Virus record (IMG/VR): IMGVR_UViG_3300035188_001312
Coordinates: 62,001 to 126,000 of that record
Origin: a virus
Direction: 5' to 3' (one strand)
DNA length: 64,000 bases
Shown: positions 9,732 through 62,327 of the stretch, one piece after another
How the letters are laid out: each line of letters begins with the position of its first letter
How positions within the stretch are numbered: position 1 is the stretch's first letter
Position numbers and translations under genes: made by a program
The notes under the pieces: generated by a model
The model's database searches: none
Told to the model about the DNA's origin: nothing
The model's input: the letters and a program-made list of their open reading frames with translations, nothing else

Positions 9732-11492
9732 ATGGCTAAACATTATAAGATTGTTAAGAGAAATGGGGAAATCGTTCCCTTGGACATTACAAAAATAAGA
9801 CAGGTTATTGAATGGGCTGCAGTTGGTTTGGATATAAATCCCATTGAGTTAGAGTCTAATTTACATATGCGTTTTAGAAATGATATGACTACCAAAGAGA
9901 TTCAGGAAAATATTATTGATACCGCATTACAGTTAACTTCAATAGATTCACCCGATTGGAGAATATTAGCTGCAAGATTAAAACTTATGGATCTATATAA
10001 GGATATTAAATTTGAAAAAGGTTATGATACCTTTGGCTATGATGATTATTTGCGTCATGTCACAACATCCGTAGAACAGGGTTTATATGATGCAGCATTA
10101 TTATCATTATACACAAATGATGAAATTTCAACTGCTGGTACATTTTTAGATATGCGTTACGACATGGATTTTGATTATGCTGGTGCTAATATTATGATTC
10201 ACAGATATTTGATTACCCGCGAAAATTCTCCTTGGGAATTGCCTCAGGAAGCATTTTTGACTGCCGCAATGTTGATTGAACGATACCAACCAAAAGATAT
10301 TCGGTTAGATTTGGTTCGAGATACATATGAAAAAATGGCAAAAAGAAAATTATCATTGGCCACACCTATGTTGATGAATTTAAGAAAACCATTTGGTAAT
10401 TTATCATCATGTTTTATTGTTGCATTTGGTGATAGTAGAGATTCAATCTTTTATGTTTTAGATCAGATTGCAAAAATTAGTAAAAATGGTGGTGGTGTAG
10501 GAGTTAATGTTTCGAGAGTGCGGTGTAAAGGATCGTGGATTAATGGAACACCAAATGCATCTGGTGGGGTAATTCCGTGGATTAGAAATATTAATGATGT
10601 TGTTGTTTCTGTAAATCAACAGGGTAAAAGAGCTGGTGCTGCAACAGTAGCATTGGATTCGTGGCATATGGATATTGAAGATTTCTTAGAACTTCAAACT
10701 GAAAATGGTGACCATCGAATGAAAGCATTTGATATTTTTCCACAGGTGGTATTATCGGATGAATTTATGCGTCGAGTTGAAGCGGATAAATTGTGGACTT
10801 TAGTTGATCCTCATGAAATTAAAATTAAATTTGGTGTGGACATCGCTGAAATATGGGGTACTGAATTTGAAAAATTGTATCAACAAATTGAAAATCTTAT
10901 TTTTGATCATGGCAAAAAATTCAACGTTGATTTAGAAAATCTCAGTGTGGAAGATTTTGAAAAAGAGTATAAAGAGTTGTTGATTGGTAAAGATGTTGGA
11001 AGTTTAACCGATCACACCTGTTTAAAAATGATTAAACGCATTAGTGCAAAAAATCTTTTCAAAACGATTATGAAAACACAGGTTGAAACTGGTATGCCTT
11101 ACTTGACCTTTAAAGATGCAATGAACAGAGCAAACCCAAATAAACATGATGGCATGATTGGTAATGGAAATCTGTGTTTATCTGGCGATACTATAGTGAA
11201 TGCAAGAATTGATGATAGTTTTGTTGATCTAAGAATGGAGGAGCTAGTTGAAATTTACAAAGAAAATAAGAATATTTCGGTTAAATCATTTGACCATGAA
11301 ACTGATACCACAGAATACCAAACTTTAACTGATGCGTTTTTAACTTATGAAAAATCAAATGTTATGAAATTAACAGATAGTGAAACAGGAAATTATGTTA
11401 TTTGTACACCAGATCATAAAATTTGGACTGAAAACCGAGGATATGTACAAGCTAAGGATTTGGTTTCATCTGATCGTCTTAAAATACAATAA
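9732..11492 (+). CDS. nrdA: Ribonucleotide reductase large subunit, piece 1, fused to split intein N-half
   Basis: 586 residues: about 481 of RNR followed by 105 of intein. Residues 1-90 are an ATP-cone (KIVKRNGEIVPLDITKI). Residue C227 in NLSSCF corresponds to E. coli NrdA C225, and a glycine-rich NGGGVGVNVSRVR segment follows. The RNR part stops at GNGNL, the N437-L438 of E. coli NrdA, just before the thiyl-radical cysteine. The intein begins C-LSGDT (block A) and carries CTPDHKIW (block B, TxxH), ending with a stop after RLKIQ. The sequence resembles the known NrdA-2 type split inteins of environmental phages. The protein would be non-functional until trans-spliced with the product of the next gene. 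A weak AAGGAA precedes the start. Confidence 0.95.
   Translation: MAKHYKIVKRNGEIVPLDITKIRQVIEWAAVGLDINPIELESNLHMRFRNDMTTKEIQENIIDTALQLTSIDSPDWRILAARLKLMDLYKDIKFEKGYDTFGYDDYLRHVTTSVEQGLYDAALLSLYTNDEISTAGTFLDMRYDMDFDYAGANIMIHRYLITRENSPWELPQEAFLTAAMLIERYQPKDIRLDLVRDTYEKMAKRKLSLATPMLMNLRKPFGNLSSCFIVAFGDSRDSIFYVLDQIAKISKNGGGVGVNVSRVRCKGSWINGTPNASGGVIPWIRNINDVVVSVNQQGKRAGAATVALDSWHMDIEDFLELQTENGDHRMKAFDIFPQVVLSDEFMRRVEADKLWTLVDPHEIKIKFGVDIAEIWGTEFEKLYQQIENLIFDHGKKFNVDLENLSVEDFEKEYKELLIGKDVGSLTDHTCLKMIKRISAKNLFKTIMKTQVETGMPYLTFKDAMNRANPNKHDGMIGNGNLCLSGDTIVNARIDDSFVDLRMEELVEIYKENKNISVKSFDHETDTTEYQTLTDAFLTYEKSNVMKLTDSETGNYVICTPDHKIWTENRGYVQAKDLVSSDRLKIQ
11175..11489 (+). other. Split intein 1, N-fragment (105 residues)
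   Basis: It starts at Cys1 of CLSGDT and ends at the ORF stop. Block A and block B (TPDH) are present. Its partner begins at 11592. No endonuclease domain is present, and only 99 bases separate the halves. Confidence 0.92.
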
Positions 11493-11497
11493 AATTT

Positions 11498-11539
11498 AAA
11501 ACATCTGTGATTATATTATTATAGATGTTTAATTTTTTT
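11498..11539 (+). terminator. Terminator-like hairpin between RNR pieces 1 and 2
   Basis: AAACATCT pairs with AGATGTTT over a 17-base AT-rich loop and is followed closely by a run of seven T. If it works, piece 2 needs its own promoter: TTGAAG and GATAAT spaced by 16 bases follow at about 11553-11580. Confidence 0.5.
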
Positions 11540-11552
11540 AAAAAAAACAATT

Positions 11553-11580
11553 GAAGCGTTAAAATACAAAACGATAATAC
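11553..11580 (+). promoter_or_regulatory. Possible sigma70-type promoter for RNR piece 2
   Basis: TTGAAG, 16 bases, then GATAAT, lying between the hairpin and the ribosome site AGGAAAG of piece 2. A match in AT-rich DNA is only suggestive. Confidence 0.3.
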
Positions 11581-11591
11581 AGGAAAGTAAA

Positions 11592-11690
11592 ATGATAGAA
11601 ATAGAATATTTAAATGTTGAAATTCCAGTTTATGATATAAATGTTAAAAAAAATAACAATTTTTATGCAAATAATATATTGGTGCATAAT
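11592..11690 (+). other. Split intein 1, C-fragment (33 residues)
   Basis: Blocks F and G read VYDINVKKNNNFYANNILVHN minus spacing, ending in the His-Asn dyad with Cys at +1. The +1 Cys is at the same time the predicted radical cysteine of RNR. Confidence 0.92.
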
Positions 11691-12626
11691 TGTCAGGAAT
11701 CCTATTCAAATTTTAAACCATCAACAGTTTTAGACAGTAGAATTGAGGAAGCTGATGGAAAATTCAAAATAGTTGGTGAGGTTGATGCTGGTTTAGTGCA
11801 TGTTTGTAACTTAAATAGTATTAATTTGTCCAACATTACCGATAATGATGATTTGAAATCTGTTTGTGAAACCGCTGTTCGTTTATTAGATAATGCTATT
11901 GATTTTACTGATGTTCCAATTCGAGAAGGTGAAATTCACAATAATTTATATAGAACTATTGGTGTTGGTAGTATGGGTTTAGCTGATTATCTTGCAAAAA
12001 GACAAATTCAGTATGCTAATTCAACAGAGGTGGTCGATGAATTATTTGAAAATATTGCTTACTACACTATTAACGCATCAATCCAATTAGCTAAAAAATT
12101 GGGTACATATAAAAAATATGCTGGTTCGGAATGGTCTAAGGGTTTAATTTTATGTAGAGATAGAGATTGGTTTAAAAATAACACGAAAGATCCCGCAAGA
12201 TGGATGAAAACTTTTGATGATTTGAAAAAATATGGTATTCGCAATAGTCATATTCATATGATTGCACCCAATTGCCAAGATCCGAATAATAAAATCAGAA
12301 CTAAAAATGGTGTTAAATCTATTTATGATATTTTAGTCGAACAAGGGTTTGATATTGCTACTATTGAGAACAATGATCCTCATTGGGTAGATTTAAAAAC
12401 TCCTATTGAGGTTGATACTTTAAATGGTGTGGATGTTTGTGACCGAATTTGGTTTAATGGAAAACAGGATACCATAAATATTGAATTTGAAGATGGTAAT
12501 ACCTATACTTATACTTTAAATCACAAGTTGTTAGTTTCTCGAATTGACGGAACGACCGAATGGGTTCGAGTTGATGAGTTGCAAGAAGGTGATGAAATTG
12601 TTAATCAAGATGCTGTAATTAATTAG
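11592..12626 (+). CDS. nrdA: Ribonucleotide reductase large subunit, middle piece, flanked by an intein C-half and an intein N-half
   Basis: 344 residues in three parts: intein 1 C-half (33), RNR (about 194), intein 2 N-half (117). The C-half ends FYANNILVHN and the first extein residue is Cys, giving N-L-C-Q-E, the E. coli N437-C439-E441 active site. VHVCNLNSINL contains the equivalent of C462. The RNR part ends at HMIAPN, the start of the substrate phosphate loop (PSETSS in E. coli). Intein 2 then begins with Cys but with an unusual block A (CQDPNNKI); its block B is TLNHKLLV. AGGAAAG lies before the start. This one polypeptide must undergo two trans-splicing reactions to become the centre of the enzyme. 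Confidence 0.95.
   Translation: MIEIEYLNVEIPVYDINVKKNNNFYANNILVHNCQESYSNFKPSTVLDSRIEEADGKFKIVGEVDAGLVHVCNLNSINLSNITDNDDLKSVCETAVRLLDNAIDFTDVPIREGEIHNNLYRTIGVGSMGLADYLAKRQIQYANSTEVVDELFENIAYYTINASIQLAKKLGTYKKYAGSEWSKGLILCRDRDWFKNNTKDPARWMKTFDDLKKYGIRNSHIHMIAPNCQDPNNKIRTKNGVKSIYDILVEQGFDIATIENNDPHWVDLKTPIEVDTLNGVDVCDRIWFNGKQDTINIEFEDGNTYTYTLNHKLLVSRIDGTTEWVRVDELQEGDEIVNQDAVIN
12273..12623 (+). other. Split intein 2, N-fragment (117 residues, unusual block A)
   Basis: It begins CQDPNNKIRTKNG instead of the usual C-x-x-G/x-D-T. Block B (TLNHKLL) is normal, and the end (ELQEGDEIVNQ) is like the N-halves of other phage split inteins. Confidence 0.85.
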
Positions 12627-12712
12627 ATTAACATCTGCAGGTCTTAATGTTGTTTTAAGTTGAATTAAAACCATCATAAATTATTTTAAATCAAAAATTG
12701 AGAAAATGTTAA

Positions 12713-12820
12713 ATGAAAATTAAAAAGATAACTAAAAATGTTGAGAAAACAATAACCTATGATTTTGAAGTAAAAAATCAGCATCATTATTTTATGGAAA
12801 ATGGTGTTGCATCACATAAT
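12713..12820 (+). other. Split intein 2, C-fragment (36 residues)
   Basis: Blocks F and G read TYDFEVKNQHHYFMENGVASHN when taken in parts, ending in His-Asn with Thr at +1. The +1 residue differs from intein 1 (Cys), which may help keep the two reactions apart. Confidence 0.9.
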
Positions 12821-13204
12821 ACGAGTTCTAGTTTGGTGCAAGGTTGTTCTGCTTCGGTATTACCAATATTTAGTAAATTTTATGTTGATAAAAATTCTAA
12901 AGGTTCTGTGCCCATTATGCCTCCATATATCAAGGATAACTTTTGGTACTATCAGGAATTTAAAAATATTCTTCAAAAAAATGTAGTTGATGTTATTTCG
13001 AGAATACAAAAATGGACTGATACCGGTATTTCGATGGAATTAATCATTAATTTAAATTTACCAAATGTGAACGCGAAGTATATTTACGAAACTTTGATGA
13101 CCGCATGGAAAAATGATTTGAAAACAGTGTATTATATTCGATCTGTCCAAAAAAATTCATCTGATGTATCTGCTAAAGAGGAATGTGCCAGTTGTTCGGG
13201 TTAA
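12713..13204 (+). CDS. nrdA: Ribonucleotide reductase large subunit, C-terminal piece, with intein 2 C-half
   Basis: 163 residues: 36 of intein and about 127 of RNR. The extein begins TSSSLVQGCS, completing the phosphate loop (E. coli ETSSQISNATNG). The C-terminus is ECASCSG, a CxxC pair like the redox-shuttle cysteines of NrdA (CESC). The three exteins sum to about 802 residues, a normal class I large-subunit length, so nothing seems lost. The 86-base gap to piece 2 holds no gene. No small subunit (NrdB) lies in the window. Confidence 0.93.
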   Translation: MKIKKITKNVEKTITYDFEVKNQHHYFMENGVASHNTSSSLVQGCSASVLPIFSKFYVDKNSKGSVPIMPPYIKDNFWYYQEFKNILQKNVVDVISRIQKWTDTGISMELIINLNLPNVNAKYIYETLMTAWKNDLKTVYYIRSVQKNSSDVSAKEECASCSG

Positions 13205-34476: not shown

Positions 34477-34507
34477 GAATCCCTACTAGTCTTGGAGAAA
34501 AGCAGTG
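34477..34507 (+). repeat. Leader repeat, copy 1
   Basis: A 31-nt block sharing TAGTCTTGGA and AAGCAGTG with 37394-37424 at equal spacing (about 24 of 31 identical). Both copies lie 70-85 bases before a start codon of a plus-strand gene. Confidence 0.5.
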
Positions 34508-34550
34508 AACGCATGATGATTTGGGTTACTATTATTTCAATTATTTTTAG

Positions 34551-34556
34551 TATAAT
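34551..34556 (+). promoter_or_regulatory. Promoter (TTTTAGTATAATA)
   Basis: TATAAT with the recurring TAGTATAATA context, 35 bases before the GTG at 34591 that has a good ribosome site. Confidence 0.45.
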
Positions 34557-34590
34557 ATATTTTCAAAAGATAATTTACATGAGGTTAACA

Positions 34591-34992
34591 GTGTATAGTC
34601 ATTTTTACAAAAGAAAATACGTTGTTCGATATGAATATATTGGAACTGATTTAAATATCGATATAGTTGAAGTATTTGAATTGTTGACCTTTGATAAAGG
34701 TATTGTCAGTATGTCACTCTATATTGAACCACATAAATGGAAAAATATTGCATTATTGTCAATAACTGAAAGTAATAAACAAACACTTTTAAATCATGGT
34801 GTTGAAATTTTAGAATCTAAATTTTTGTATGATGATGAAATAGATGCTTTGATTCAATTGGCTTTTATTTGTTCTAAATATATGGTTGCACCCAGTAAAA
34901 TTTTTGATTGTTCGAATGGTAGATTAACTACCATAGCTTATAAAAAATTGGTAAATACATTTTATGATGATTTCCCAGAGAAATATATTTAA
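34591..34992 (+). CDS. Hypothetical protein, 133 residues
   Basis: I start at the GTG at 34591 because ATGAGGTTAACA places GAGGT 5-6 bases upstream. The longer reading from 34492 or 34513 would translate the promoter (TATAAT at 34551) into a false membrane helix. The protein has YVVRYEYIGTD at its N-terminus and ends in an aromatic stretch, FYDDFPEKYI. No family recognised. It is followed after 9 bases by the P-loop gene. Confidence 0.55.
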   Translation: MYSHFYKRKYVVRYEYIGTDLNIDIVEVFELLTFDKGIVSMSLYIEPHKWKNIALLSITESNKQTLLNHGVEILESKFLYDDEIDALIQLAFICSKYMVAPSKIFDCSNGRLTTIAYKKLVNTFYDDFPEKYI

Positions 34993-35628: not shown

Positions 35629-36288
35629 TTATTTTGTTGTTTTTGTGAGGGATACTACTTTATTTAACAGTTTGTTGGCTAATGTCAATTGATTTGTTGG
35701 TAAAACCTTTTCTATTTTTGATTTCAACGACTTAATAATGTCAGTAATACCTGGTTCGTGATGTCCACCTGCATTACCATGTGCAGCATGGGCATCTTTA
35801 CTTTCCCACGGTAATACTATGTGTACCCCAGTTAACGCAGAAACCATATGTAATGGGCCAGTTATTAGATGTGCTGTAGCGGTATCAAGCTGTAATAGAA
35901 CATCAATTACGTTTTGTTGACTAAACGCTTTTTGAATATCCCCTTTAAGATCTTTTGCTTGTATTTGACAATTTTTAAATTTTTCTTTGTCACCCGAAGC
36001 TTTTGCTTGAGTTGCAGCTAAACCTAATAGGAAAGATTTCACTAATGTCTTTCCACCTTTTGCTAAAACTTGAATTAATCCGGGTTTTGTATTGTGAAAT
36101 TCAAAACCCCATTCTTTAAATTTATCGGTTAAACCATCCAATTTACCTTTTAATAAATCTAAAATTGAACTTTCAGTCAAAATAGATTCATCATCTATGA
36201 CATCAATTAAAAAAGCATATTCTAATACTAGTAATTCTTGATTAGTTAAATGAGTACCATCATCAACTAATAATTGTTTTAATTTCAT
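35629..36288 (-). CDS. Late hypothetical protein with MKLKxLL N-terminus, paralogue A
   Basis: 219 residues. The N-terminus MKLKQLLVDDGTHLTNQEL is shared with the next gene (MKLKRLLDDNGFQLTNREL), while the rest diverges. A hydrophobic segment (LVKSFLLGLAATQAKA) and a His-rich patch (DAHAAHGNAGGHHEPG) lie in the middle. Two related proteins with a common short N-terminus recall T4 internal head proteins, which carry a cleaved N-terminal capsid-targeting peptide. This is inference only. GAGAAAA precedes the start. Confidence 0.6.
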   Translation of the reverse strand: MKLKQLLVDDGTHLTNQELLVLEYAFLIDVIDDESILTESSILDLLKGKLDGLTDKFKEWGFEFHNTKPGLIQVLAKGGKTLVKSFLLGLAATQAKASGDKEKFKNCQIQAKDLKGDIQKAFSQQNVIDVLLQLDTATAHLITGPLHMVSALTGVHIVLPWESKDAHAAHGNAGGHHEPGITDIIKSLKSKIEKVLPTNQLTLANKLLNKVVSLTKTTK

Positions 36289-36375: not shown

Positions 36376-37182
36376 TTATGGTTGTCGTGTTTTGTTTTGA
36401 TTACTTTTGTTTTTCATAATTGTTTTGATTAAATATACAAAAGTTTTGTTTAGTTTTTCTCTCTGGGGGTTATTTTTATCCCCTGGTAGTAATTTCAAAG
36501 TATATGAATATATTTTTTCTAATGTTTCTTTTGCAATTATCGGTGTAATTGGTTTTCCTCCAATTTTCCCTTTATTGTTTGTGTTTCCAGTAGTTACAGA
36601 ATCATCACTCATTGTTGGTTGTGTTGTATCTTGAACTTTGGTCGAAGCAATTTTTATAAATTCTTTACCTAGATCAATCAATTTATCGAATCCAGTTTTT
36701 TCTAATTCTCCACCAAAGTGTTTCATAGACCAAGATGGTATGCTAACTTTAAGTGCTTTACTAAATTCTATTATTTCTGTGACTCTATTGTTGTCTGCGA
36801 GAATATCGTTCAGTTTTAAACCTAATGGTGGTGAAGTGAGTTCTTTTTGTAAAGCGTTTACTGATTTTTTACCTTGTGCAAATGCAGTCATTAATTTTAA
36901 AAATACGCCAATTGTTAATGATGAAACTGATAATTTTTTAAACATTGATTTTACGTTATTTATTGAATCACCAATAAGACCCTCTTCTAAAGTTGATTCA
37001 TTTTCAAGTGCTTCTAAAATAGTATCAAAAAGTTCTTGATGTCTTAATGAAACAACATCTATCATTTCTGTGGATTGCAACAAACTATCGGAATAATCGG
37101 TAAATAATGTATGTTCTATTATTTGTAATTCTCTATTAGTTAGTTGAAAACCATTATCATCCAGTAACCGTTTTAATTTCAT
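36376..37182 (-). CDS. Late hypothetical protein with MKLKxLL N-terminus, paralogue B
   Basis: 268 residues. The first 25 residues match paralogue A; later parts are unrelated except in helical character. It carries a Ser/Thr/Asn-rich linker (DTTQPTMSDDSVTTGNTNNKG, read in parts) before a basic C-terminal helix region. AATAAATA at 37225-37232 points to late transcription of both paralogues. A third gene (58193-58678) begins with a related MLLKDLKNIIFEDD. Confidence 0.6.
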   Translation of the reverse strand: MKLKRLLDDNGFQLTNRELQIIEHTLFTDYSDSLLQSTEMIDVVSLRHQELFDTILEALENESTLEEGLIGDSINNVKSMFKKLSVSSLTIGVFLKLMTAFAQGKKSVNALQKELTSPPLGLKLNDILADNNRVTEIIEFSKALKVSIPSWSMKHFGGELEKTGFDKLIDLGKEFIKIASTKVQDTTQPTMSDDSVTTGNTNNKGKIGGKPITPIIAKETLEKIYSYTLKLLPGDKNNPQREKLNKTFVYLIKTIMKNKSNQNKTRQP

Positions 37183-38449: not shown

Positions 38450-39238
38450 TTAAAAAAATAAGTTTTGTAATTTATCTGGTAATAAATGGGTATTGTTAGT
38501 TTTTAATGCATATTTTAGCATATCAGGATAATCTTTCCAAAAATCACCATCATATCTGTCTACTAATTCATTATCTACAATTAATTTTGGTGATGTAACT
38601 TGACCAATTATCATAGAATCATGTATTTTTTCTAATTCTGTTATTGCATTATGATTATCCGTGTTTAATGCTACGGTAAATGGACTTTCACCTTTTTTAT
38701 TTAATGGATTAATAATTGTTTGTTTGGCTAAACTAAAAAATAAAGATAAATATGGAGTATATAAATTTATACCTGATAAAATATGCAATATATGAGTACC
38801 TGTTATACTTTGAGAATTTACATTGATATTTTTATGTGATATGACAATTTCAAACATTTTATTTGGGTTAAGTGAATTTAAAGCACTTTTCATAAGATTG
38901 AAATCGGCAGATCTTTTTTCTGTAGTTTTGTGGTGTTCTAGCATCGTTTCAATGGTCATTGAATAATCATGTGTCGCTGTTTTTGAAACCGATATTGCAA
39001 CTTCGATAGGTGATAAAAAGTTACTACCACCAACATCAACATTGCATCCTTGATCGATGAATTGAGTTACCTTTTGTAATAATTTTATTTTATCAAGATC
39101 CGAATATATTAATGCTTCTAAAAGTGTTATTTTATTGGCAACTCCTTCTATACTTGAAATATCGATAGTTATATCAGGTTTTATATTACCATTTTTTAAT
39201 TGTTCTAACCATTGATCAATTTGTTCAATTGAAAACAT
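38450..39238 (-). CDS. Ankyrin-type LP-tail protein 1
   Basis: 262 residues. Layout: N-terminal helix IDQWLEQLKNGNIKPD, then repeats with ankyrin features (TLLEALIYSDLDKIKLLQ; QGCNVDVGGSNFLSPIEVAI; HILHILSGINL; NPLNKKGESPFTVAL), then DRYDGDFWKDYPDMLKYA and the final LPDKLQNLFF. The three genes upstream have the same plan. Ankyrin repeats bind proteins; the target is not visible. It is the last gene of a minus-strand operon whose promoter lies at 44371. Confidence 0.75.
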   Translation of the reverse strand: MFSIEQIDQWLEQLKNGNIKPDITIDISSIEGVANKITLLEALIYSDLDKIKLLQKVTQFIDQGCNVDVGGSNFLSPIEVAISVSKTATHDYSMTIETMLEHHKTTEKRSADFNLMKSALNSLNPNKMFEIVISHKNINVNSQSITGTHILHILSGINLYTPYLSLFFSLAKQTIINPLNKKGESPFTVALNTDNHNAITELEKIHDSMIIGQVTSPKLIVDNELVDRYDGDFWKDYPDMLKYALKTNNTHLLPDKLQNLFF

Positions 39239-39276
39239 TATTTTTCTCCTTTATAATAAATTGTTAATGTTATTCC

Positions 39277-40041
39277 TCAGAATAAAAGGTTTTGTATTTT
39301 TTCTGGCAATAAAAATTTTTTTTCTGATTTAACTGCGTATGTTAACATTGCTGGGTAATCTTTCCAAAAGTTACCAATATATCTGTCCACAATTTCATAT
39401 TTCACAATGTGTACTGGTGATTTACCATCATAACCTATTAACATTGCGTGTTTGTTTTGTTTCCAGGCTAATATTGTAGCAGTGTTGGTGTTTAATAATG
39501 CAACAGTCATTGGACTATATCCATCCTTATTTATTGGATTAACATCAATATCAGGTCTAAGAGTTAGAATATCGTTAAGATGTTCAACATAATATGCCAC
39601 TGCAGATAATATATGTAAAATATGAGTATTGTCATCTATAGAAATTGTGTTAACATTGATGTTTTCATTTGTTACTACTAAATTAAACATAATATTTGCA
39701 TGTAATGCACCTAACGAACATTTCATAATATTTAAATCGTTTTCGTGTTTTTTGTGGTGAGATAATAATAATCTGATTAGATCAACATAATCATTATCCT
39801 CAGACCAAAAAATTGCAGTTTCAATAGCAGAACAACCGACTTGTACACCATCCACATCACAACCAAGTGATATAAGTTTTTCAATTAGTTTAATTTTTTC
39901 ATTTGGTGATACATTTGTTACTCGTATAGCTGCATCAAGTAAGGTTGTTTGAAATTCCGTATCAACCATAAAATCGGGGGTAATCTTATGCTCTTCTAAA
40001 TCTGAAATCCATCCATTAAGTTCTGTTAAGGTAATAATCAT
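39277..40041 (-). CDS. Ankyrin-type LP-tail protein 2
   Basis: 254 residues with the same plan: LNGWISDLEEHKITPDF, LLDAAIRVTNVS, LGCDVDGVQVGCSAIETAI, HILHILSAV, NPINKDGYSPMTVAL, DRYIGNFWKDYPAMLTYA, and the tail LPEKIQNLLF. It is clearly a tandem duplicate of its neighbours, but their pairwise identity is only partial, so the duplication is not recent. Gaps to the neighbours are about 36 bases. Confidence 0.75.
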   Translation of the reverse strand: MIITLTELNGWISDLEEHKITPDFMVDTEFQTTLLDAAIRVTNVSPNEKIKLIEKLISLGCDVDGVQVGCSAIETAIFWSEDNDYVDLIRLLLSHHKKHENDLNIMKCSLGALHANIMFNLVVTNENINVNTISIDDNTHILHILSAVAYYVEHLNDILTLRPDIDVNPINKDGYSPMTVALLNTNTATILAWKQNKHAMLIGYDGKSPVHIVKYEIVDRYIGNFWKDYPAMLTYAVKSEKKFLLPEKIQNLLF

Positions 40042-40078
40042 TTTTTCACCAATGCTTTTAAATATTCAAATAGGGGTG

Positions 40079-40867
40079 TTAAAAAAACACATTTTTTAAT
40101 TTTTCTGGTAGTTGATTAAATTTACCATTTTTATAGGCATAATTTAACATTTTTGGATATTTTTTCCAAAAATCTCCAAAATATCTATCAACTAAATTGT
40201 TGTCTATAATGTCAGTTTCAGCACCAGTAAAATTTCCAATAATCATGGTATATTTTCTTTTTTGTAGTTCCCTGACTGCAACATAATTTTTTATGTTTAA
40301 TGCCACTGTGAATGGACTATTACCATTGTTATCTAGTGGGTTTAGATGTACATCTGGTGCATAAGAAAATAAATCGCCAATGAATGCTGCGTGATGTTCA
40401 GATTCAACTAAAATATGTAAAATATGTTGGTTGTTACTATTTAATGCGTTTACATCCACTTGTTTATTTGATACCACAAGTTTAAATCTGGAATCTGGAT
40501 CGTAAGAATTTATTGCCGTTATCATTAGACTAAAATCTGATTCTTGTGTGGAATTATGTTTTCTTAACATCATATTTAATATAGATGTATTTATAACATC
40601 ATCTTTTAACTGTAGTGCAATTTCTAATGGTGATCTATAATTTTTATCATTTAAACTAGCATAATTAACACCATCAACATCACAACCAAAATCTAATAAT
40701 TGTTTTATTACGTCAAATTTGACATTTACAGGCTCATTACTCAAAATAATACTTTCAAGCATAGTAATGTCACCTTTACTACTACCTATAATTGCTTTAT
40801 TTGGCTTTAATTCACCAGTTCGCAACATTTCAATCCACGAATCAAAATACTTTTTGTTAAAACTCAT
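40079..40867 (-). CDS. Ankyrin-type LP-tail protein 3
   Basis: 262 residues from the ATG at 40867, chosen because GAAGG lies 7 bases upstream. A longer reading to 40990 would overlap the preceding gene by 113 bases. Same plan: FDSWIEMLRTGELKPN, LLDFGCDVDGVNY, SPLEIALQL, HILHILVES, NPLDNNGNSPFTVAL, DRYFGDFWKKYPKMLNYA, and the tail LPEKLKNVFF. Confidence 0.75.
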   Translation of the reverse strand: MSFNKKYFDSWIEMLRTGELKPNKAIIGSSKGDITMLESIILSNEPVNVKFDVIKQLLDFGCDVDGVNYASLNDKNYRSPLEIALQLKDDVINTSILNMMLRKHNSTQESDFSLMITAINSYDPDSRFKLVVSNKQVDVNALNSNNQHILHILVESEHHAAFIGDLFSYAPDVHLNPLDNNGNSPFTVALNIKNYVAVRELQKRKYTMIIGNFTGAETDIIDNNLVDRYFGDFWKKYPKMLNYAYKNGKFNQLPEKLKNVFF

Positions 40868-40877
40868 ATGCATACCT

Positions 40878-41648
40878 TCAAAATAAAAGACTTGAAATTT
40901 TAGGTGGTAGCATATCAAATTTCCCAAATTTATATGCATATTGTAACATATCTGGATGATCTTTCCAAAAATCCCCATTATATCTATCAACTAATTCATA
41001 ATGTATTATCTTTTTTGGGTCATTTACTTTTCCAATTATTCTGCATTTTATATTGTGTTTTAATGCAGAAATTGCAGATGAATCATCTATGTTGATTGCC
41101 AATGTTAATGGACTTTCACCTTCGGAATTTAGTGGATTGGATATTGTTTTTGGGTTATCCAAAATTAAATTAACAAACGTTGGGTTATAGATTCCTTCAT
41201 AAATCATAATATGTAATATGTAATCACCATATATTGTTTTTTCATTTGTGTTTATATTATCACTACCAACAATTACAGGGAATAATGCTTCTGCATGTGG
41301 TGATTTAAACGACGTTTTTATTATTTCTAAATCTAAATGGTTAGATTTATGGTGTTGTAACATTAGATATACAACATCTGTATAGTTCATGGTTTGCATA
41401 ATTGCTCGCTCTATTGGGGTAAATACCCCTTCTGCATCAACATCACACCCCAATTCAATTAACTTTTCTACTCTATCTAATAATTCCTTTTTAGTTAATT
41501 TACTGCTTATTGCAGCATCTAATAAATTTACGGAATTCTTATTTCCCAAACTAACTAACTTATTTGGGTTCATTACACCGCTTTTTATTTTTTTTATCCA
41601 TTCATCAATTTGTTCTGGAGTATAAACTGTAACTGTGTTCTTTGTCAT
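40878..41648 (-). CDS. Ankyrin-type LP-tail protein 4
   Basis: 256 residues: IDEWIKKIKSGVMNPN, NLLDAAISSK, LGCDVDAEGVFTPIERAI, YILHIMIYE, NPLNSEGESPLTLAI, DRYNGDFWKDHPDMLQYA, tail LPPKISSLLF. The first of the four near-identical-plan genes in transcription order. Its tail is the least regular of the four. Confidence 0.75.
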   Translation of the reverse strand: MTKNTVTVYTPEQIDEWIKKIKSGVMNPNKLVSLGNKNSVNLLDAAISSKLTKKELLDRVEKLIELGCDVDAEGVFTPIERAIMQTMNYTDVVYLMLQHHKSNHLDLEIIKTSFKSPHAEALFPVIVGSDNINTNEKTIYGDYILHIMIYEGIYNPTFVNLILDNPKTISNPLNSEGESPLTLAINIDDSSAISALKHNIKCRIIGKVNDPKKIIHYELVDRYNGDFWKDHPDMLQYAYKFGKFDMLPPKISSLLF

Positions 41649-41667
41649 TTTATTGCCTTTTGTGAAT

Positions 41668-42531
41668 TCAAATTATATCGCTGATAAAAAATATGTTTCG
41701 AATATTTTCTGGTAATGTTTCGGGAATATAAGTCAAAATTAATTTTATTAATGTTGGTTCTAATTTTATAACATTTTTTACCTGTGTACTGTTGATTTTA
41801 TCAATCCATACATCTTTACCATCAATAAATTGTAAGATGTAATCTTTATTAATTCCTTCCCCGCTAGTAATATAATCATAGACATCTTTTGAACCATTAG
41901 TTAAGGCTTCCAATGCTATTCGCTGAACATCACCTAATCTTGTCAAACTACTTGTGTTCATTTCACCGTACTGAGAATATTCATAGCCCATGTTTCGAAA
42001 TAAATTTTCACGATTCTTGTTTTTTTCTGAAAAATTAAAAATTTCTTTTATGAAATCTAAATCATTATGTTTTGCTGCAATGATACACACTAGATGTAAG
42101 AACCCATTATCTCTAATATTTCCCGATTTATGTAAATTTCTTAAATTATTTCCAAAACATTTGTCGTTGATACCATACTTATCCATAAATTGAATAATAT
42201 CTTTTAAGGTTTTAGTTTCCCCACCACTAATTGCGTGTGATACTGCCGATTGTAATTTTATATTTAAAGATGCGAATAGAATGTTTAACTTTTTTTCTTC
42301 ATCACGACAATACGCCATAAGTTCCGGTAATATATCTTTATCCGAAACATTACTAGCCCCGTATTTTGTTTCTAATGATTTTTTAATTTTTTCAAATTTA
42401 TCATCATAAGACTGATAGTTTGATAAAATTTTTGAAATTTCATCCCCAATATTTTCGACACCTGAAAAATTATCTCTTGCATGTTTTTCCTGTGATGAAA
42501 TTTTTTTAATATTTTTAGTTGCTGTATTCAT
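41668..42531 (-). CDS. LP-tail protein 5, repeat-containing
   Basis: 287 residues. Ankyrin-like spacing appears in the middle (GFLHLVCIIAAKHNDLDFIKE). The start region is charged. The tail motif LPENIRNIFF is present but followed by five more residues (ISDII), the only member where it is not terminal. It belongs to the operon by spacing (about 20 bases on both sides). Confidence 0.65.
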   Translation of the reverse strand: MNTATKNIKKISSQEKHARDNFSGVENIGDEISKILSNYQSYDDKFEKIKKSLETKYGASNVSDKDILPELMAYCRDEEKKLNILFASLNIKLQSAVSHAISGGETKTLKDIIQFMDKYGINDKCFGNNLRNLHKSGNIRDNGFLHLVCIIAAKHNDLDFIKEIFNFSEKNKNRENLFRNMGYEYSQYGEMNTSSLTRLGDVQRIALEALTNGSKDVYDYITSGEGINKDYILQFIDGKDVWIDKINSTQVKNVIKLEPTLIKLILTYIPETLPENIRNIFFISDII

Positions 42532-42552
42532 AATTTGTGTCGATTGATTGAG

Positions 42553-43461
42553 TTAAAAAAACAAATTTTTTATTTTTTCCGGTAAATATCTATTATCTTT
42601 TGTAATCTTATATAACAATTTACTCACTATTGGGGATTGAATATCAACTATGCGTTTTAACCATGGTGTGTAATCTTCTTCAGCAAATTTACCCAATTCT
42701 ATTAAATTGCAGAATAATATTCCTGTTTCTGTTGTATAATAATTTCTTATTAGTGATGCTAAAGTATCCATAGCTTGTTTATCGGTAGATAAAACGGTTT
42801 CATACTTTTTCATAATATCGTCGATTGTTTCACCACCATTGAAAAATAATATTTCACTTGGAAATGTTTTAATCGCTGATAACATCATTCGAAATAATTC
42901 AGGCGAATAATTTGCATCAACCAGAGAATAGTAAAAATGTAAGTCTTTAAGTGTTCGGAAAATTGCCCATGACTTATCAGGACTTATTGATTTAGCCTGT
43001 TTAACCAATTCTTTTTTAAAAAAGAATTCCATATCAGAAAACCAAGGTTTTTCCGAGAGAGCCGTAAACCAATGTCCAGAACCGCCACCATCATAGTTCA
43101 ACACTGCGTAAACTAATATTCCAATGTCATAATTATTAAATCTGATTTTATCATTCAGTGAAATATTTTTGTACATGAACTTATAACTCCAGGGTGGTTT
43201 ATTTTTCCCTTTTATGAGTTTATTGAATTCATTAAATATCACCGACCAAATAAATTCACAGTTTTCCGTGTTGTTTGCTATACCGGATGCATATTCATAT
43301 AATGCTTCATTTTTTGAATTTCGCAGTAATCCTCTCACAAACTCAGCTTTTTGTATATAATGAGTATCCTTTAAACTGTCATTACATAATTTAATAAATT
43401 CGATTGGGTTTTTGGGTGAATGTAGTTTTTTAGCTTTTTCACCAGCTTCAAGGTAATCCAT
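42553..43461 (-). CDS. LP-tail protein 6, helical
   Basis: 302 residues, helical, without clear ankyrin repeats. It ends LLYKITKDNRYLPEKIKNLFF when read in two parts (KLLYKITKDNRY, LPEKIKNLFF). The pre-tail LLY-K-x-T-K is shared with the next gene and the distant gene at 60006, which marks a second subfamily. Function unknown. Confidence 0.65.
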   Translation of the reverse strand: MDYLEAGEKAKKLHSPKNPIEFIKLCNDSLKDTHYIQKAEFVRGLLRNSKNEALYEYASGIANNTENCEFIWSVIFNEFNKLIKGKNKPPWSYKFMYKNISLNDKIRFNNYDIGILVYAVLNYDGGGSGHWFTALSEKPWFSDMEFFFKKELVKQAKSISPDKSWAIFRTLKDLHFYYSLVDANYSPELFRMMLSAIKTFPSEILFFNGGETIDDIMKKYETVLSTDKQAMDTLASLIRNYYTTETGILFCNLIELGKFAEEDYTPWLKRIVDIQSPIVSKLLYKITKDNRYLPEKIKNLFF

Positions 43462-43472
43462 ATTATCTCCAT

Positions 43473-44327
43473 TTAAAAGAAAATTAGATTTTTAACCTTT
43501 TCAGGTAAAAAATCGACATTTTTAGTTTTGTTATATAATAATTTTTTTATATCATCTGGACAGTTTGGATTTTTACAAAAGTTTAGAATAGTAGCTATTC
43601 TAAAATTCGACATCATTGATTGTGAACTTAAAACACGAGTCAATAATTTCCCCAACTCTATTCCATTTGCTACTACTCGCCACTCTAAGTTGTGGTTAGT
43701 TAATAATGCTTCGACTAAATCATCTGTATCTAATGTTCGGATTTTCCAATCCTTTGCTTTATCACATACAGCTTCAAAGATTTTTGGCATTTTTAATAAT
43801 CCTGGGTTTGATGCCATCATAATTAGATTTTTATCAGATTTTATATTTTTCAATAATATTTTTTCAGGTGCGTTAGGATGTTTGAAAAAATCTGCTCGTT
43901 GTCTTTCTAACCAACTTTTATCTACTTGTGGATTATTTTTAGGTATTAGCGAACTATAAATTTCTTCTAATTGTTTTGGTGAGGTATGTTTTGATTTCCA
44001 AAATTTAAATGGTAGTCCTCTAGCTAAACCATTTTCCCATACGTCATCGAATAATTCTTTCGAACCATTATCAAATAATTTATAAGTGTCGTTGCCATAA
44101 ATAATCAAAAATTTTTCAAGATTAATATTTGCCAGTTCTCTGATAATATCATCTGTACAGTTTTTTTCTTCCGATATTTTTAGATAAATTTCCCATGGAG
44201 TGTGGATACTTGTTCCAATTAAGTGGGTTGGGGTATTTTTTATGGTTTTTACTAATTCTTCTAATTCAACATGAGAAATACTCGGATTTTTAAGTTTTTC
44301 ATAGCAATCATCATACATATTTATCAT
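43473..44327 (-). CDS. LP-tail protein 7, helical; first gene of the operon
   Basis: 284 residues. Repeated helical units with NPGLLKMPK, NHNLEWRVV and CKNPNCPDDIKKLL suggest a HEAT- or leucine-rich-variant-like solenoid. The end is KKLLYNKTKNVDF then LPEKVKNLIFF. AAGG lies 8 bases before the start and an exact TATAAATA at 44371-44378 lies 44 bases upstream. Confidence 0.65.
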   Translation of the reverse strand: MINMYDDCYEKLKNPSISHVELEELVKTIKNTPTHLIGTSIHTPWEIYLKISEEKNCTDDIIRELANINLEKFLIIYGNDTYKLFDNGSKELFDDVWENGLARGLPFKFWKSKHTSPKQLEEIYSSLIPKNNPQVDKSWLERQRADFFKHPNAPEKILLKNIKSDKNLIMMASNPGLLKMPKIFEAVCDKAKDWKIRTLDTDDLVEALLTNHNLEWRVVANGIELGKLLTRVLSSQSMMSNFRIATILNFCKNPNCPDDIKKLLYNKTKNVDFLPEKVKNLIFF

Positions 44328-44370: not shown

Positions 44371-44378
44371 TATTTATA
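44371..44378 (-). promoter_or_regulatory. Late promoter, exact TATAAATA, of the LP-tail operon
   Basis: Exact T4 late consensus on the minus strand, 44 bases before the first gene of the seven-gene operon. Confidence 0.65.
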
Positions 44379-44414
44379 GGTGTTTTTAATGTTCACTTTA
44401 TTTTAAAAGGTCAG

Positions 44415-44422
44415 TATAAATA
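44415..44422 (+). promoter_or_regulatory. Late promoter, exact TATAAATA, of the adhesin region
   Basis: Exact consensus 54 bases before the fibre gene at 44476; AAAGGAG is the ribosome site. Confidence 0.75.
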
Positions 44423-44475: not shown

Positions 44476-45291
44476 ATGGTTGATTCAATTTTTAAAAAAA
44501 TGGGTAGTGTAGTTGCAACCGCTGTTGCAAATGAAGCATCTGCCAGACAGGCGGCAGTTACTACTTTAACCACTGCATTAGAAACTGCTAATACTAATAG
44601 ACAAAATGCTATTTCAACTGAAGCATCTGCAAGACAAGCCGCAGATACTACTTTAACAAATAATCTTGCTTCTGAAGCAACTTCAAGAGCAACTGCTGAT
44701 AACAATTTGACTACAGCTATCAATACCGAAAAAGCTAGAATTGATGCTATTTTATCAGCATCATCTGCTGATAAAGATTCATTTGCTGAAATTGTTACTT
44801 TGATTAACTCAGTTGATACTACTAATGATAACGCATTCGCATCATATGTAACATCTAATAATGCAGCAGTCGCGGCATTAGATACTGCGTATAAAGCTGC
44901 TGATACTACATTAACTAATAATTTGGCATTAAAAGCACCAATTGCAAACCCAACATTTACTGGTGTTGCAACTTTCGTAGGTATTAAAGAAACTAAAATT
45001 GCTATGTCAGCAAACAACATTGATTTAGCTACAGGGTCTGTATTCAGTAAAACTATTTCAGGTGCTACTACATTAACTATTTCAAATTCACCTACATCTG
45101 GTTTAGTAGGAACTTTTATTCTTAACCTTACTAATGGTGGTTCATCAACTATTACTTGGTTTAGTGGTATTAAATGGGTTGGTGGTACAGCTCCAACTTT
45201 AACAACTGCTGGTAGAGATAGATTGGGTTTCATTACTGAAGATGGTGGTACAACTTGGGATGGTTTTGTAATGGGTAAAGATCTTAAATAA
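44476..45291 (+). CDS. Tail fibre protein with coiled-coil shaft and C-terminal tip
   Basis: 271 residues. Residues 15-100 are Ala/Thr-rich heptads (EASARQAAVTTL, EASARQAADTTLTNNL repeated), typical of trimeric fibre shafts. ALKAPIANPTFTG (residues 155-167) is a motif common in fibres before a knob. The end WFSGIKWVGGTAPTL...TEDGGTTWDGFVMG is a widespread fibre tip. The adhesin genes follow in the same transcript. Confidence 0.8.
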   Translation: MVDSIFKKMGSVVATAVANEASARQAAVTTLTTALETANTNRQNAISTEASARQAADTTLTNNLASEATSRATADNNLTTAINTEKARIDAILSASSADKDSFAEIVTLINSVDTTNDNAFASYVTSNNAAVAALDTAYKAADTTLTNNLALKAPIANPTFTGVATFVGIKETKIAMSANNIDLATGSVFSKTISGATTLTISNSPTSGLVGTFILNLTNGGSSTITWFSGIKWVGGTAPTLTTAGRDRLGFITEDGGTTWDGFVMGKDLK

Positions 45292-57075: not shown

Positions 57076-57342
57076 TTATATTAATTTTTCGGGGTAATGT
57101 AATTCTAACTGTTTTGTAAATTGTGGTTTTATTTTTATTTCAATTGGAGTTATCACATCTATAGTTCCGTCAGTGTTATATCTTATACATATACTGACAT
57201 ATTTTTCATTCATAATATGTACATAATTTGATGAAATAAAATTATTAATATTATGTTCCATATTATGAATTAGATTCTCAGTCAATAATTCAAATGATGA
57301 ACTATCGGTTAATTGTTCGATGTAATCAATCAAACTTTTCAT
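57076..57342 (-). CDS. Small hypothetical protein, 88 residues
   Basis: LIDYIEQLTDSSSFELLTEN then YVSICIRYNTDGTIDVITPIEIK; mixed helix and strand. It starts next to the HAD gene's stop, so coupling is likely. No family recognised. Confidence 0.5.
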   Translation of the reverse strand: MKSLIDYIEQLTDSSSFELLTENLIHNMEHNINNFISSNYVHIMNEKYVSICIRYNTDGTIDVITPIEIKIKPQFTKQLELHYPEKLI

Positions 57343-60005: not shown

Positions 60006-60818
60006 TCAAAATATTAATAGTTGTTTCAGTTTTTTAGGTAATATAGTTTCATCTTTAGTGTACTTATACATTTCAATTTTTATTTTATCTGGACTGTTTT
60101 TATGTTTTGCAATGGCAATTTTTCTTGATGTTGTGGTACATTTATCAAAAAAATCAACTAAAATTTTTGTTGATGTATCTTTGAATTGTGTTAAAACGTT
60201 AACAATCTGGTCTTCAAATACATCATCATCCGATAACTGATATTCCACTTCATCTCGATACCAATCATACATGTCATCGTCAGACATAGAACTGAATAAT
60301 TTATGTAAAAAAACAATTGTTTCTTTGTTTGCTATGTTATACGAGATAGTTATAGTTGCGAATATTCGGTTAAAAGGCTCATCTGTAATATCAAACCATA
60401 ATGGTCTCCCTAAAACACAATAATGTAAAAAACTATATGGGGATTTTGAATTAAAATACTTGATCCAGTCCAATTTATTACTGGTACCTACACCAGGGGT
60501 AAGTTTAAATAGGTGATTTAAAGTATTAAAATGATCATCTGTATTTACAAAATTATCAAGATAAACAACATTCGCAAATTTATTCAAAACATCTAAATTG
60601 AATGGTCCCTGTTGACTACATATTAAACTTTTATAAAAAGAGATTCTATTAGACGCTTTTTCTATATTCTCCGATATTTCAAAAATCTCCAATAATTCTG
60701 TATTTGAAAAAGTGAATTTACTTAGAAATTCACTATTCCTCGCAGTTATAGATGTATTAAAAAATTCTTTGATCTGTTTTGATTTATCCACAATATCACT
60801 TTTTTTTAATTTACTCAT
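60006..60818 (-). CDS. LP-tail protein 8, distant member
   Basis: 270 residues from the ATG at 60818 (GAGGG upstream). Helical. The end NSPDKIKIEMYKYTKDETI then LPKKLKQLLIF matches the subfamily of 42553 and 43473 (Y-K-x-T-K-D...LP-x-K). It lies 16 kb from the operon, in its own unit with AATAAATA repeats upstream (60838-60860). So the tail is not only a by-product of tandem duplication in one place. Confidence 0.65.
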   Translation of the reverse strand: MSKLKKSDIVDKSKQIKEFFNTSITARNSEFLSKFTFSNTELLEIFEISENIEKASNRISFYKSLICSQQGPFNLDVLNKFANVVYLDNFVNTDDHFNTLNHLFKLTPGVGTSNKLDWIKYFNSKSPYSFLHYCVLGRPLWFDITDEPFNRIFATITISYNIANKETIVFLHKLFSSMSDDDMYDWYRDEVEYQLSDDDVFEDQIVNVLTQFKDTSTKILVDFFDKCTTTSRKIAIAKHKNSPDKIKIEMYKYTKDETILPKKLKQLLIF

Positions 60819-60837
60819 AAACACCCTCGTTTGTTTT

Positions 60838-61754: not shown

Positions 61755-62327
61755 CTACATAAGTCTCAAACCCTTATTGAATGAGTTTTTACCTTTTAAA
61801 TTGTTGATGATTGTTTTTGGTGATTTTTGTGGTTTTTCACTGTTGTCATCATTATCTGTTGTGGAGTCGTTATATTGTGAATCATTATTTTCTTTGTTTT
61901 TAGTGAGTTTAGTATATTCTTTTTGTTTTGAATTTGCCCTTACATCAGTATAAGCATTTTTATCGTGTGATACCGTTTCTTCTCCATTTTCATTTGTAGT
62001 TGGGATAAATGATAATGTTCCCCAATCAGTTTTAAAAAAAACATATGAACCAACACCGGATGAATCTCTGGTTTTTAATAATTTTGCTCTAATAATTCCT
62101 GAATCTCTTGATGCTGAATTTGGGATGAACGCTAATACATTATCAGCACTTTGAATTTTTGCGATACCACCTTGAATATTTTCTTCTGAAATATCATTGG
62201 TATCACCACTAGCACTATTATGGGTAAGTATGTCATTAGTAAAAAATAAGTGATCACCATCAACAGTAATATCTCTGGTTTTTCTAATACCAATTTTTTG
62301 AATATTTACGATTTCATCCAATACCAT
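61755..62327 (-). CDS. Replicative DNA helicase (gp41-type) C-terminal piece, with intein C-half
   Basis: 190 residues from the ATG at 62327 (GGGAG 5 bases upstream). Residues 1-37 are an intein C-half ending LFFTNDILTHN. The extein begins SASGDTNDIS and goes on QSADNVLAFIPNSASRDSG and AKLLKTRDSSGVGSYVFF, the end of the RecA-like core of gp41/DnaB helicases. The gp41-1 and gp41-8 split inteins known from environmental phages sit before the same S-[AS] residues. The last 80 residues are polar. The N-terminal piece with Walker A must be elsewhere; it is not between here and the window end. Confidence 0.85.
   Translation of the reverse strand: MVLDEIVNIQKIGIRKTRDITVDGDHLFFTNDILTHNSASGDTNDISEENIQGGIAKIQSADNVLAFIPNSASRDSGIIRAKLLKTRDSSGVGSYVFFKTDWGTLSFIPTTNENGEETVSHDKNAYTDVRANSKQKEYTKLTKNKENNDSQYNDSTTDNDDNSEKPQKSPKTIINNLKGKNSFNKGLRLM
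62217..62327 (-). other. Orphan split-intein C-fragment in helicase (37 residues)
   Basis: Blocks F and G read DITVDGDHLFFTNDILTHN in parts; Ser at +1. No partner in the window. Confidence 0.88.

Follow-up and report, generated by a model that had tools for sequence, protein, structure and literature searches.

Why should neighbouring genes with different bodies end in one and the same short stretch of residues? This question is raised by an operon within a 64,000-nucleotide piece of viral DNA (the window; positions 62,001 to 126,000 of IMG/VR record IMGVR_UViG_3300035188_001312), for which an initial annotation described seven genes with a common LP-type C-terminal tail and an eighth some 16 kb away. 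We find all seven in place on the minus strand and confirm each of their C-terminal sequences as well as that of the eighth gene. Numbered from the first gene of the operon, and with G003 denoting a second phage introduced below, they are:

43473..44327, minus strand: tail gene 1, 284 aa, end LPEKVKNLIFF; body ortholog at G003 239882-240703; tail codons and stop at 43473..43508
42553..43461, minus strand: tail gene 2, 302 aa, end LPEKIKNLFF; tail codons and stop at 42553..42585
41668..42531, minus strand: tail gene 3, 287 aa, end LPENIRNIFF followed by ISDII; body ortholog at G003 251481-252266; tail codons, five extra codons and stop at 41668..41715
40878..41648, minus strand: tail gene 4, ankyrin-type, 256 aa, end LPPKISSLLF; tail codons and stop at 40878..40910
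40079..40867, minus strand: tail gene 5, ankyrin-type, 262 aa from ATG 40867, end LPEKLKNVFF; tail codons and stop at 40079..40111
39277..40041, minus strand: tail gene 6, ankyrin-type, 254 aa, end LPEKIQNLLF; tail codons and stop at 39277..39309
38450..39238, minus strand: tail gene 7, ankyrin-type, 262 aa, end LPDKLQNLFF; tail codons and stop at 38450..38482
60006..60824, minus strand: tail gene 8, 272 aa, end LPKKLKQLLIF; tail codons and stop at 60006..60041

For tail gene 5 (third by coordinate) the ATG at 40867 is the preferable start, the mechanically assigned TTG at 40990 overlapping the neighbouring gene. The description of four genes as ankyrin-type stands with a qualification: it is backed for genes 4-6 by Pfam Ank_2 matches (E 1.7e-5 to 3.4e-4) that fall under the curated cut-off and for gene 7, which has no such match, by an AF2 model (pLDDT 88) with an ankyrin fold and ankyrin-B as best Foldseek hit (E 5.7e-5). 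While genes 4-7 form one ankyrin-fold family, a tail of this kind is not found on ankyrin proteins in general, and the majority of the tail proteins reported here are not ankyrins. Gene 8 was modelled as an all-helical solenoid (pLDDT 80), possibly of HEAT-like or leucine-rich-repeat-variant type, its best Foldseek hits being weak (E 0.011 viral, 0.077 PDB). With C-terminal helices predicted at residues 239-246 and 255-261 (gene 7) and 244-254 and 262-269 (gene 8), the shared end is probably a helical pair. Since AF2 builds the tail into the fold as one of its helices, it may have a structural role in part.

The tail in jumbo phages

The source record of the window (140,755 bases) is contained in a larger IMG/VR contig of 306,333 bases (G001, IMGVR_UViG_3300035665_000001), on which a window position p corresponds to p+97264. 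G001 is a T4-type jumbo phage; its genes include those for a T4-type major head protein (phrog_138), a tail sheath stabiliser, a type II topoisomerase and an SbcC-like nuclease, and it encodes a late sigma factor that matches T4 gp55. The contig holds 14 tail genes, the eight of the window and six elsewhere (12293-13060, 188164-189570, 189604-190335, 193143-193769, 193781-194593, 201604-202422). Four of the 14 form the ankyrin family and three more another (12293, 201604 and tail gene 8 at 157270, which also has a homologue at G003 263274-264062), the rest being separate.

The search for the C-terminal pattern proposed in the initial annotation was run on IMG/VR DNA and revealed further tail genes. 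The pattern T.[DN]..[FYIL][LI]P..hK.hhhh-stop matched only G001 and two other large contigs, G002 with about seven tail genes and G003 (IMGVR_UViG_3300026521_000003, 289,880 b), a second jumbo phage whose major capsid protein is 85% identical to that of G001. A later tail-pattern scan added G004, a close relative of G003 covering mainly the structural half, whose sole tail ortholog (84% identity) has retained the tail. It was tail-shaped DNA patterns, not protein scans, that detected these relatives: IMG/VR scans with proteins and with the ankyrin alignment returned no phage beyond G001, and tblastn against 50,697 phage records found no relative with five G001 and two G003 tail proteins, nor with a 28-residue consensus tail. 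A single weak tblastn match (E 0.08) falls in Vibrio phage 11895-B1 and has no tail, and matches at L030/L031, at L076 and in six bacterial-genome stretches are unrelated and due to chance.

G003 has 43 tail proteins, five of them elsewhere in the genome and 38 in one cluster (239,882-273,800), where 38 of 43 consecutive listed plus-strand ORFs carry the tail. Their ends follow the consensus [FY]LP.[ED][VI]KDIF[IV]F (in the cluster, [LI]Px[DE][VI]KDIF[IV]F), with the highest information in F at -3 (43/43), F at -1 (41/43) and P at -10; since the set was chosen by hydrophobic last residues, the figures for positions -1 to -3 depend on that choice, which leaves the contiguous-block count unaffected. 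Conservation is strongest at the final residues, against the stop codon. Between no two of these 43 proteins is body homology detectable, and tail bodies are diverse: ankyrins, other helical solenoids and small proteins, many without any match, with Pfam Ank_2 hits in 6 of the 50 tail proteins of G003 and G002. One tail, at G003 236768, ends a 105-aa protein whose N-terminal part matches a small phage family. Two other ORFs lie inside the G003 cluster, a putative TnpB-type transposon ORF on the opposite strand that splits the tail-gene run (L036 4317-5507) and a 202-aa ORF (254086-254694) that is hydrophobic, resembles a membrane protein and does not carry the tail.

The shared tail is real rather than a product of chance, and the set is larger than first noted. 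Loose tails end 14 ORFs in G001, against 0.03 expected from internal matches (0.01-0.06 per genome from internal occurrences). In a leave-group-out test, each tail was held out together with all others of its body family, and HMMs of the remaining tails matched it at the C-terminus in most families, with i-E values of 3e-12 to about 0.01 (3.4e-12 for gene 1, 3.7e-9 for gene 2; best members of other families 3.5e-5, 1.8e-4, 3e-4, 0.011 and 0.012). Matches were weak for G001 138932 (0.69) and 193143 (0.23), as well as for individual members of two families, and the tail model found no significant match in the bodies of tail proteins. Including the preceding helix (Y..T.D..[FY]LP), the conserved stretch spans some 22-30 residues, of which the last 10-11 form the constant part.

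Tails, bodies and genomes

Between G001 and G003, seven pairs of tail proteins are orthologous in their bodies, with phmmer E values of 7e-10 to 8e-53 and 23-40% identity. The tails of a pair resemble each other hardly more than those of non-orthologs compared between the genomes (mean score 26.6 vs 25.7), scores within the genomes average 30.1 and 41.7, and 1489 of 5040 random pairings did as well as the true one. Position-specific models assigned 11/14 tails to G001 and 36/43 to G003 as their own genome, a dialect that is imperfect as 3/14 G001 tails score better with the G003 model. It differs two residues past the proline, K in G001 and E or D in G003, and at the very end, with LFF or LLF in G001 and IFIF in G003. 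At shared tail residues the same codon is used at rates of 0.59 and 0.66, where genome codon usage predicts 0.57 and 0.64. These data show a genome-specific tail dialect and selection that acts on the peptide rather than copying of DNA.

Two readings of the tail meet these results directly. Recent copying at the DNA level, by gene conversion or 3'-end shuffling, could keep tails similar without any function and would account for their being more alike within than between genomes; however, codons at shared residues differ as much as genome codon usage predicts, and such randomisation makes a recent copying event unlikely, so that this explanation is largely refuted and, to our minds, very improbable indeed. 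Alternatively, the tail could be an ordinary cap, the terminal helix in an ancient family of alpha-solenoids, retained for sealing the hydrophobic core and with no partner. The initial annotation had itself named a buried last helix of the repeat fold, present in all ankyrin relatives, as the finding that would overturn a signal. The tail is indeed the last helix, within a helical pair, in both AF2 models, and in the family of tail gene 8, G001 12293 and G001 201604 it is preceded by a conserved HKN.P.KIK helix; yet that objection holds only in part, as many non-ankyrin bodies also end in the tail. Against a cap stand, moreover, the lack of detectable homology between bodies, the absence of the tail inside them, the conservation peak next to the stop and the presence of a tail on the 105-aa protein of G003. 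An inherited cap would also predict the best tail match within ortholog pairs, and as this is not seen, with tails of orthologs failing to track their bodies, a common trans-acting partner fits instead. We regard a mere cap as unlikely.

The bodies themselves diverge fast. Orthologous tail proteins of G001 and G003 share 22-38% identity, compared with a median of 50.5% for other reciprocal best hits and 85% for the major capsid protein, and for the majority of tail proteins there is no ortholog between the two phages. Accessory proteins exposed to changing selection show such a pattern, as described for the internal proteins of T4, where bodies vary while capsid-targeting-like sequences persist (PMC9026906).

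Late-promoter-like elements and candidate roles of the tail

Upstream of the operon lies an element that resembles a late promoter:

44371..44378, minus strand: late-promoter-like element TATAAATA, 51 bp upstream of tail gene 1

In the window TATAAATA is rarer than in shuffled sequence (10 vs 17), but it is concentrated 20-70 bp upstream of gene starts, with 29/57 sites in G001 (1.7 at random) and 39/127 in G003 (3.4 at random), and the major capsid gene is among the genes it precedes. At 44371-44422 two copies stand back to back, one for the tail operon and one, on the opposite strand, for a fibre-like gene cluster (gene at 44476). An element of this type stands at the head of the seven-gene operon and of four tail genes in G003. 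Counted by units that it heads, 37/43 tail genes of G003 are included as opposed to 101/255 other genes; the automated count gave a weak difference in G001 (6/14 vs 77/345) and 1/7 tail genes in G002. As evidence from promoter shape, this suggests late-type expression of the tail genes.

We consider it probable that the tail acts as a docking peptide at the C-terminus, read by a common partner specific to each phage. The initial annotation expected a sorting, packaging, degradation or partner-docking signal, and a signal of this kind is supported by the unrelated bodies, the tails that follow genomes, the codon test and the anchoring at the stop codon. Late in infection, the phage would produce accessory proteins that evolve rapidly and have ankyrin, other solenoid or small folds. 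Their two-helix end, approximately Y..T.D..[FY]LP..[VI]K.[LI]F(.)F and finishing at the stop codon, would be recognised by one partner protein that differs slightly between phages. The tail would thereby bring all of these proteins to the partner, most likely a component of the assembling virion, and load them as cargo in a manner like the N-terminal capsid targeting sequence of T4. We infer a single partner for all tails; the least certain parts are that this partner belongs to the virion and that the cargo passes into the host. Virion loading draws on the late promoters and on analogy, and the former favour virion assembly over degradation without proving it. Taken as a whole, the mechanism of docking plus recruitment to the assembling virion appears to us about evenly balanced between right and wrong. 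None of the tail proteins could be matched with confidence to any known protein of virions, and one match to an internal-head-protein PHROG (E 0.0065) was too weak to be counted as evidence.

Every argument for a common partner applies equally if the tail docks to a target outside the virion, such as a replication or transcription complex, a membrane or a non-virion factory. Late-type promoter elements, however, suit assembly better than early functions, and we are inclined to doubt docking elsewhere. As free hydrophobic C-termini can serve as protease signals, the tail might instead be a C-degron, a protease recognition site that limits protein lifetime. Conservation that reaches the P, charged positions and the upstream helix speaks against this, a phage-specific dialect is unexpected for a host protease, and making dozens of proteins merely for destruction is implausible; hence we hold a degron to be highly unlikely.

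Compared with known systems, docking to a virion partner has two near parallels. In T4 the capsid targeting sequence on IPI-IPIII is N-terminal and about 10 residues long, loads the prohead and is cut off by the prohead protease (PMC9026906). Like it, the tail is a short conserved terminus of some 10 residues on divergent bodies in a T4-type phage, but the tail is C-terminal at the stop codon and its role in packaging is only inferred, whereas the T4 sequence is N-terminal and removed. Encapsulin targeting peptides are short and C-terminal and recruit cargo to an HK97-fold shell through hydrophobic and ionic contacts (PMC7925596). The tail shares with them its size and protein end, with docking here deduced from sequence; they are, however, glycine-rich and of GSL type (DGSLGIGSLKG; PMC7925596), a consensus from which the tail departs (LP.EVKDIFIF), and in contrast to encapsulin cargo the tagged proteins number in dozens. 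Since protein end and sequence type differ, we claim membership in neither class.

A third likeness concerns poxviruses, whose ankyrin proteins dock a partner through a C-terminal F-box-like (PRANC) domain with a helix starting LP-x-E. An ankyrin body followed by an LP-x-E helix is common to both, while here there is one short helix only and a tailed phage. Identity with F-box or PRANC domains was rejected, no Pfam match at E<1 being found for the eight window proteins. In the literature on phage C-terminal tails common to several proteins we found nothing comparable, which agrees with the initial statement that no named family of this kind was known.

A terminal tag on 14 to 43 mostly unrelated proteins would allow an entire functional class of hypothetical giant-phage proteins to be delimited by sequence alone. 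Were it a packaging tag, the tail proteins would be candidates for injected proteins with roles in take-over or counter-defence, the tag could carry other cargo, and it would constitute a C-terminal counterpart of the T4 capsid targeting sequence. Separately, we observed N-termini of the form MK[LI]..[LI][LI].E that resemble the T4 targeting sequence itself, often just downstream of TATAAATA; they occur in the window at 35629-36288 and 36376-37182 and in many genes of G001, G002 and G003.

In three genomes, 58 small proteins with a median length of 110 aa carry a second, shorter C-terminal tail, [YF]PE.[LFWY][IV]; 24 of them are in G003 (0.14 expected) and 29 in G002 (0.07 expected), and within one genome no two of the bodies are detectably related. 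Its genes lie at 179-240 kb and 286 kb in G003, throughout G002 (29 genes), in the window at 34492-34992 and 57076-57342, and at L006 3214-3579. Neither tail class is present in the first 50 kb of T4. It is possible, if somewhat doubtful, that the phages use a C-terminal address code of at least two labels, LP..[VI]KDIFIF for larger proteins, most of them late, and [YF]PE.[LFW][IV] for some 58 small ones, each label directing proteins that change fast and are otherwise unrelated to a destination of its own. Finally, the large subunit of ribonucleotide reductase is divided among separate ORFs in the window (9732-13204), where intein-like stretches occur (YDINVKKNNNFYANN; YDFEVKNQHHYFMEN), and is a single ORF of 798 aa in G003 (67370-69766).
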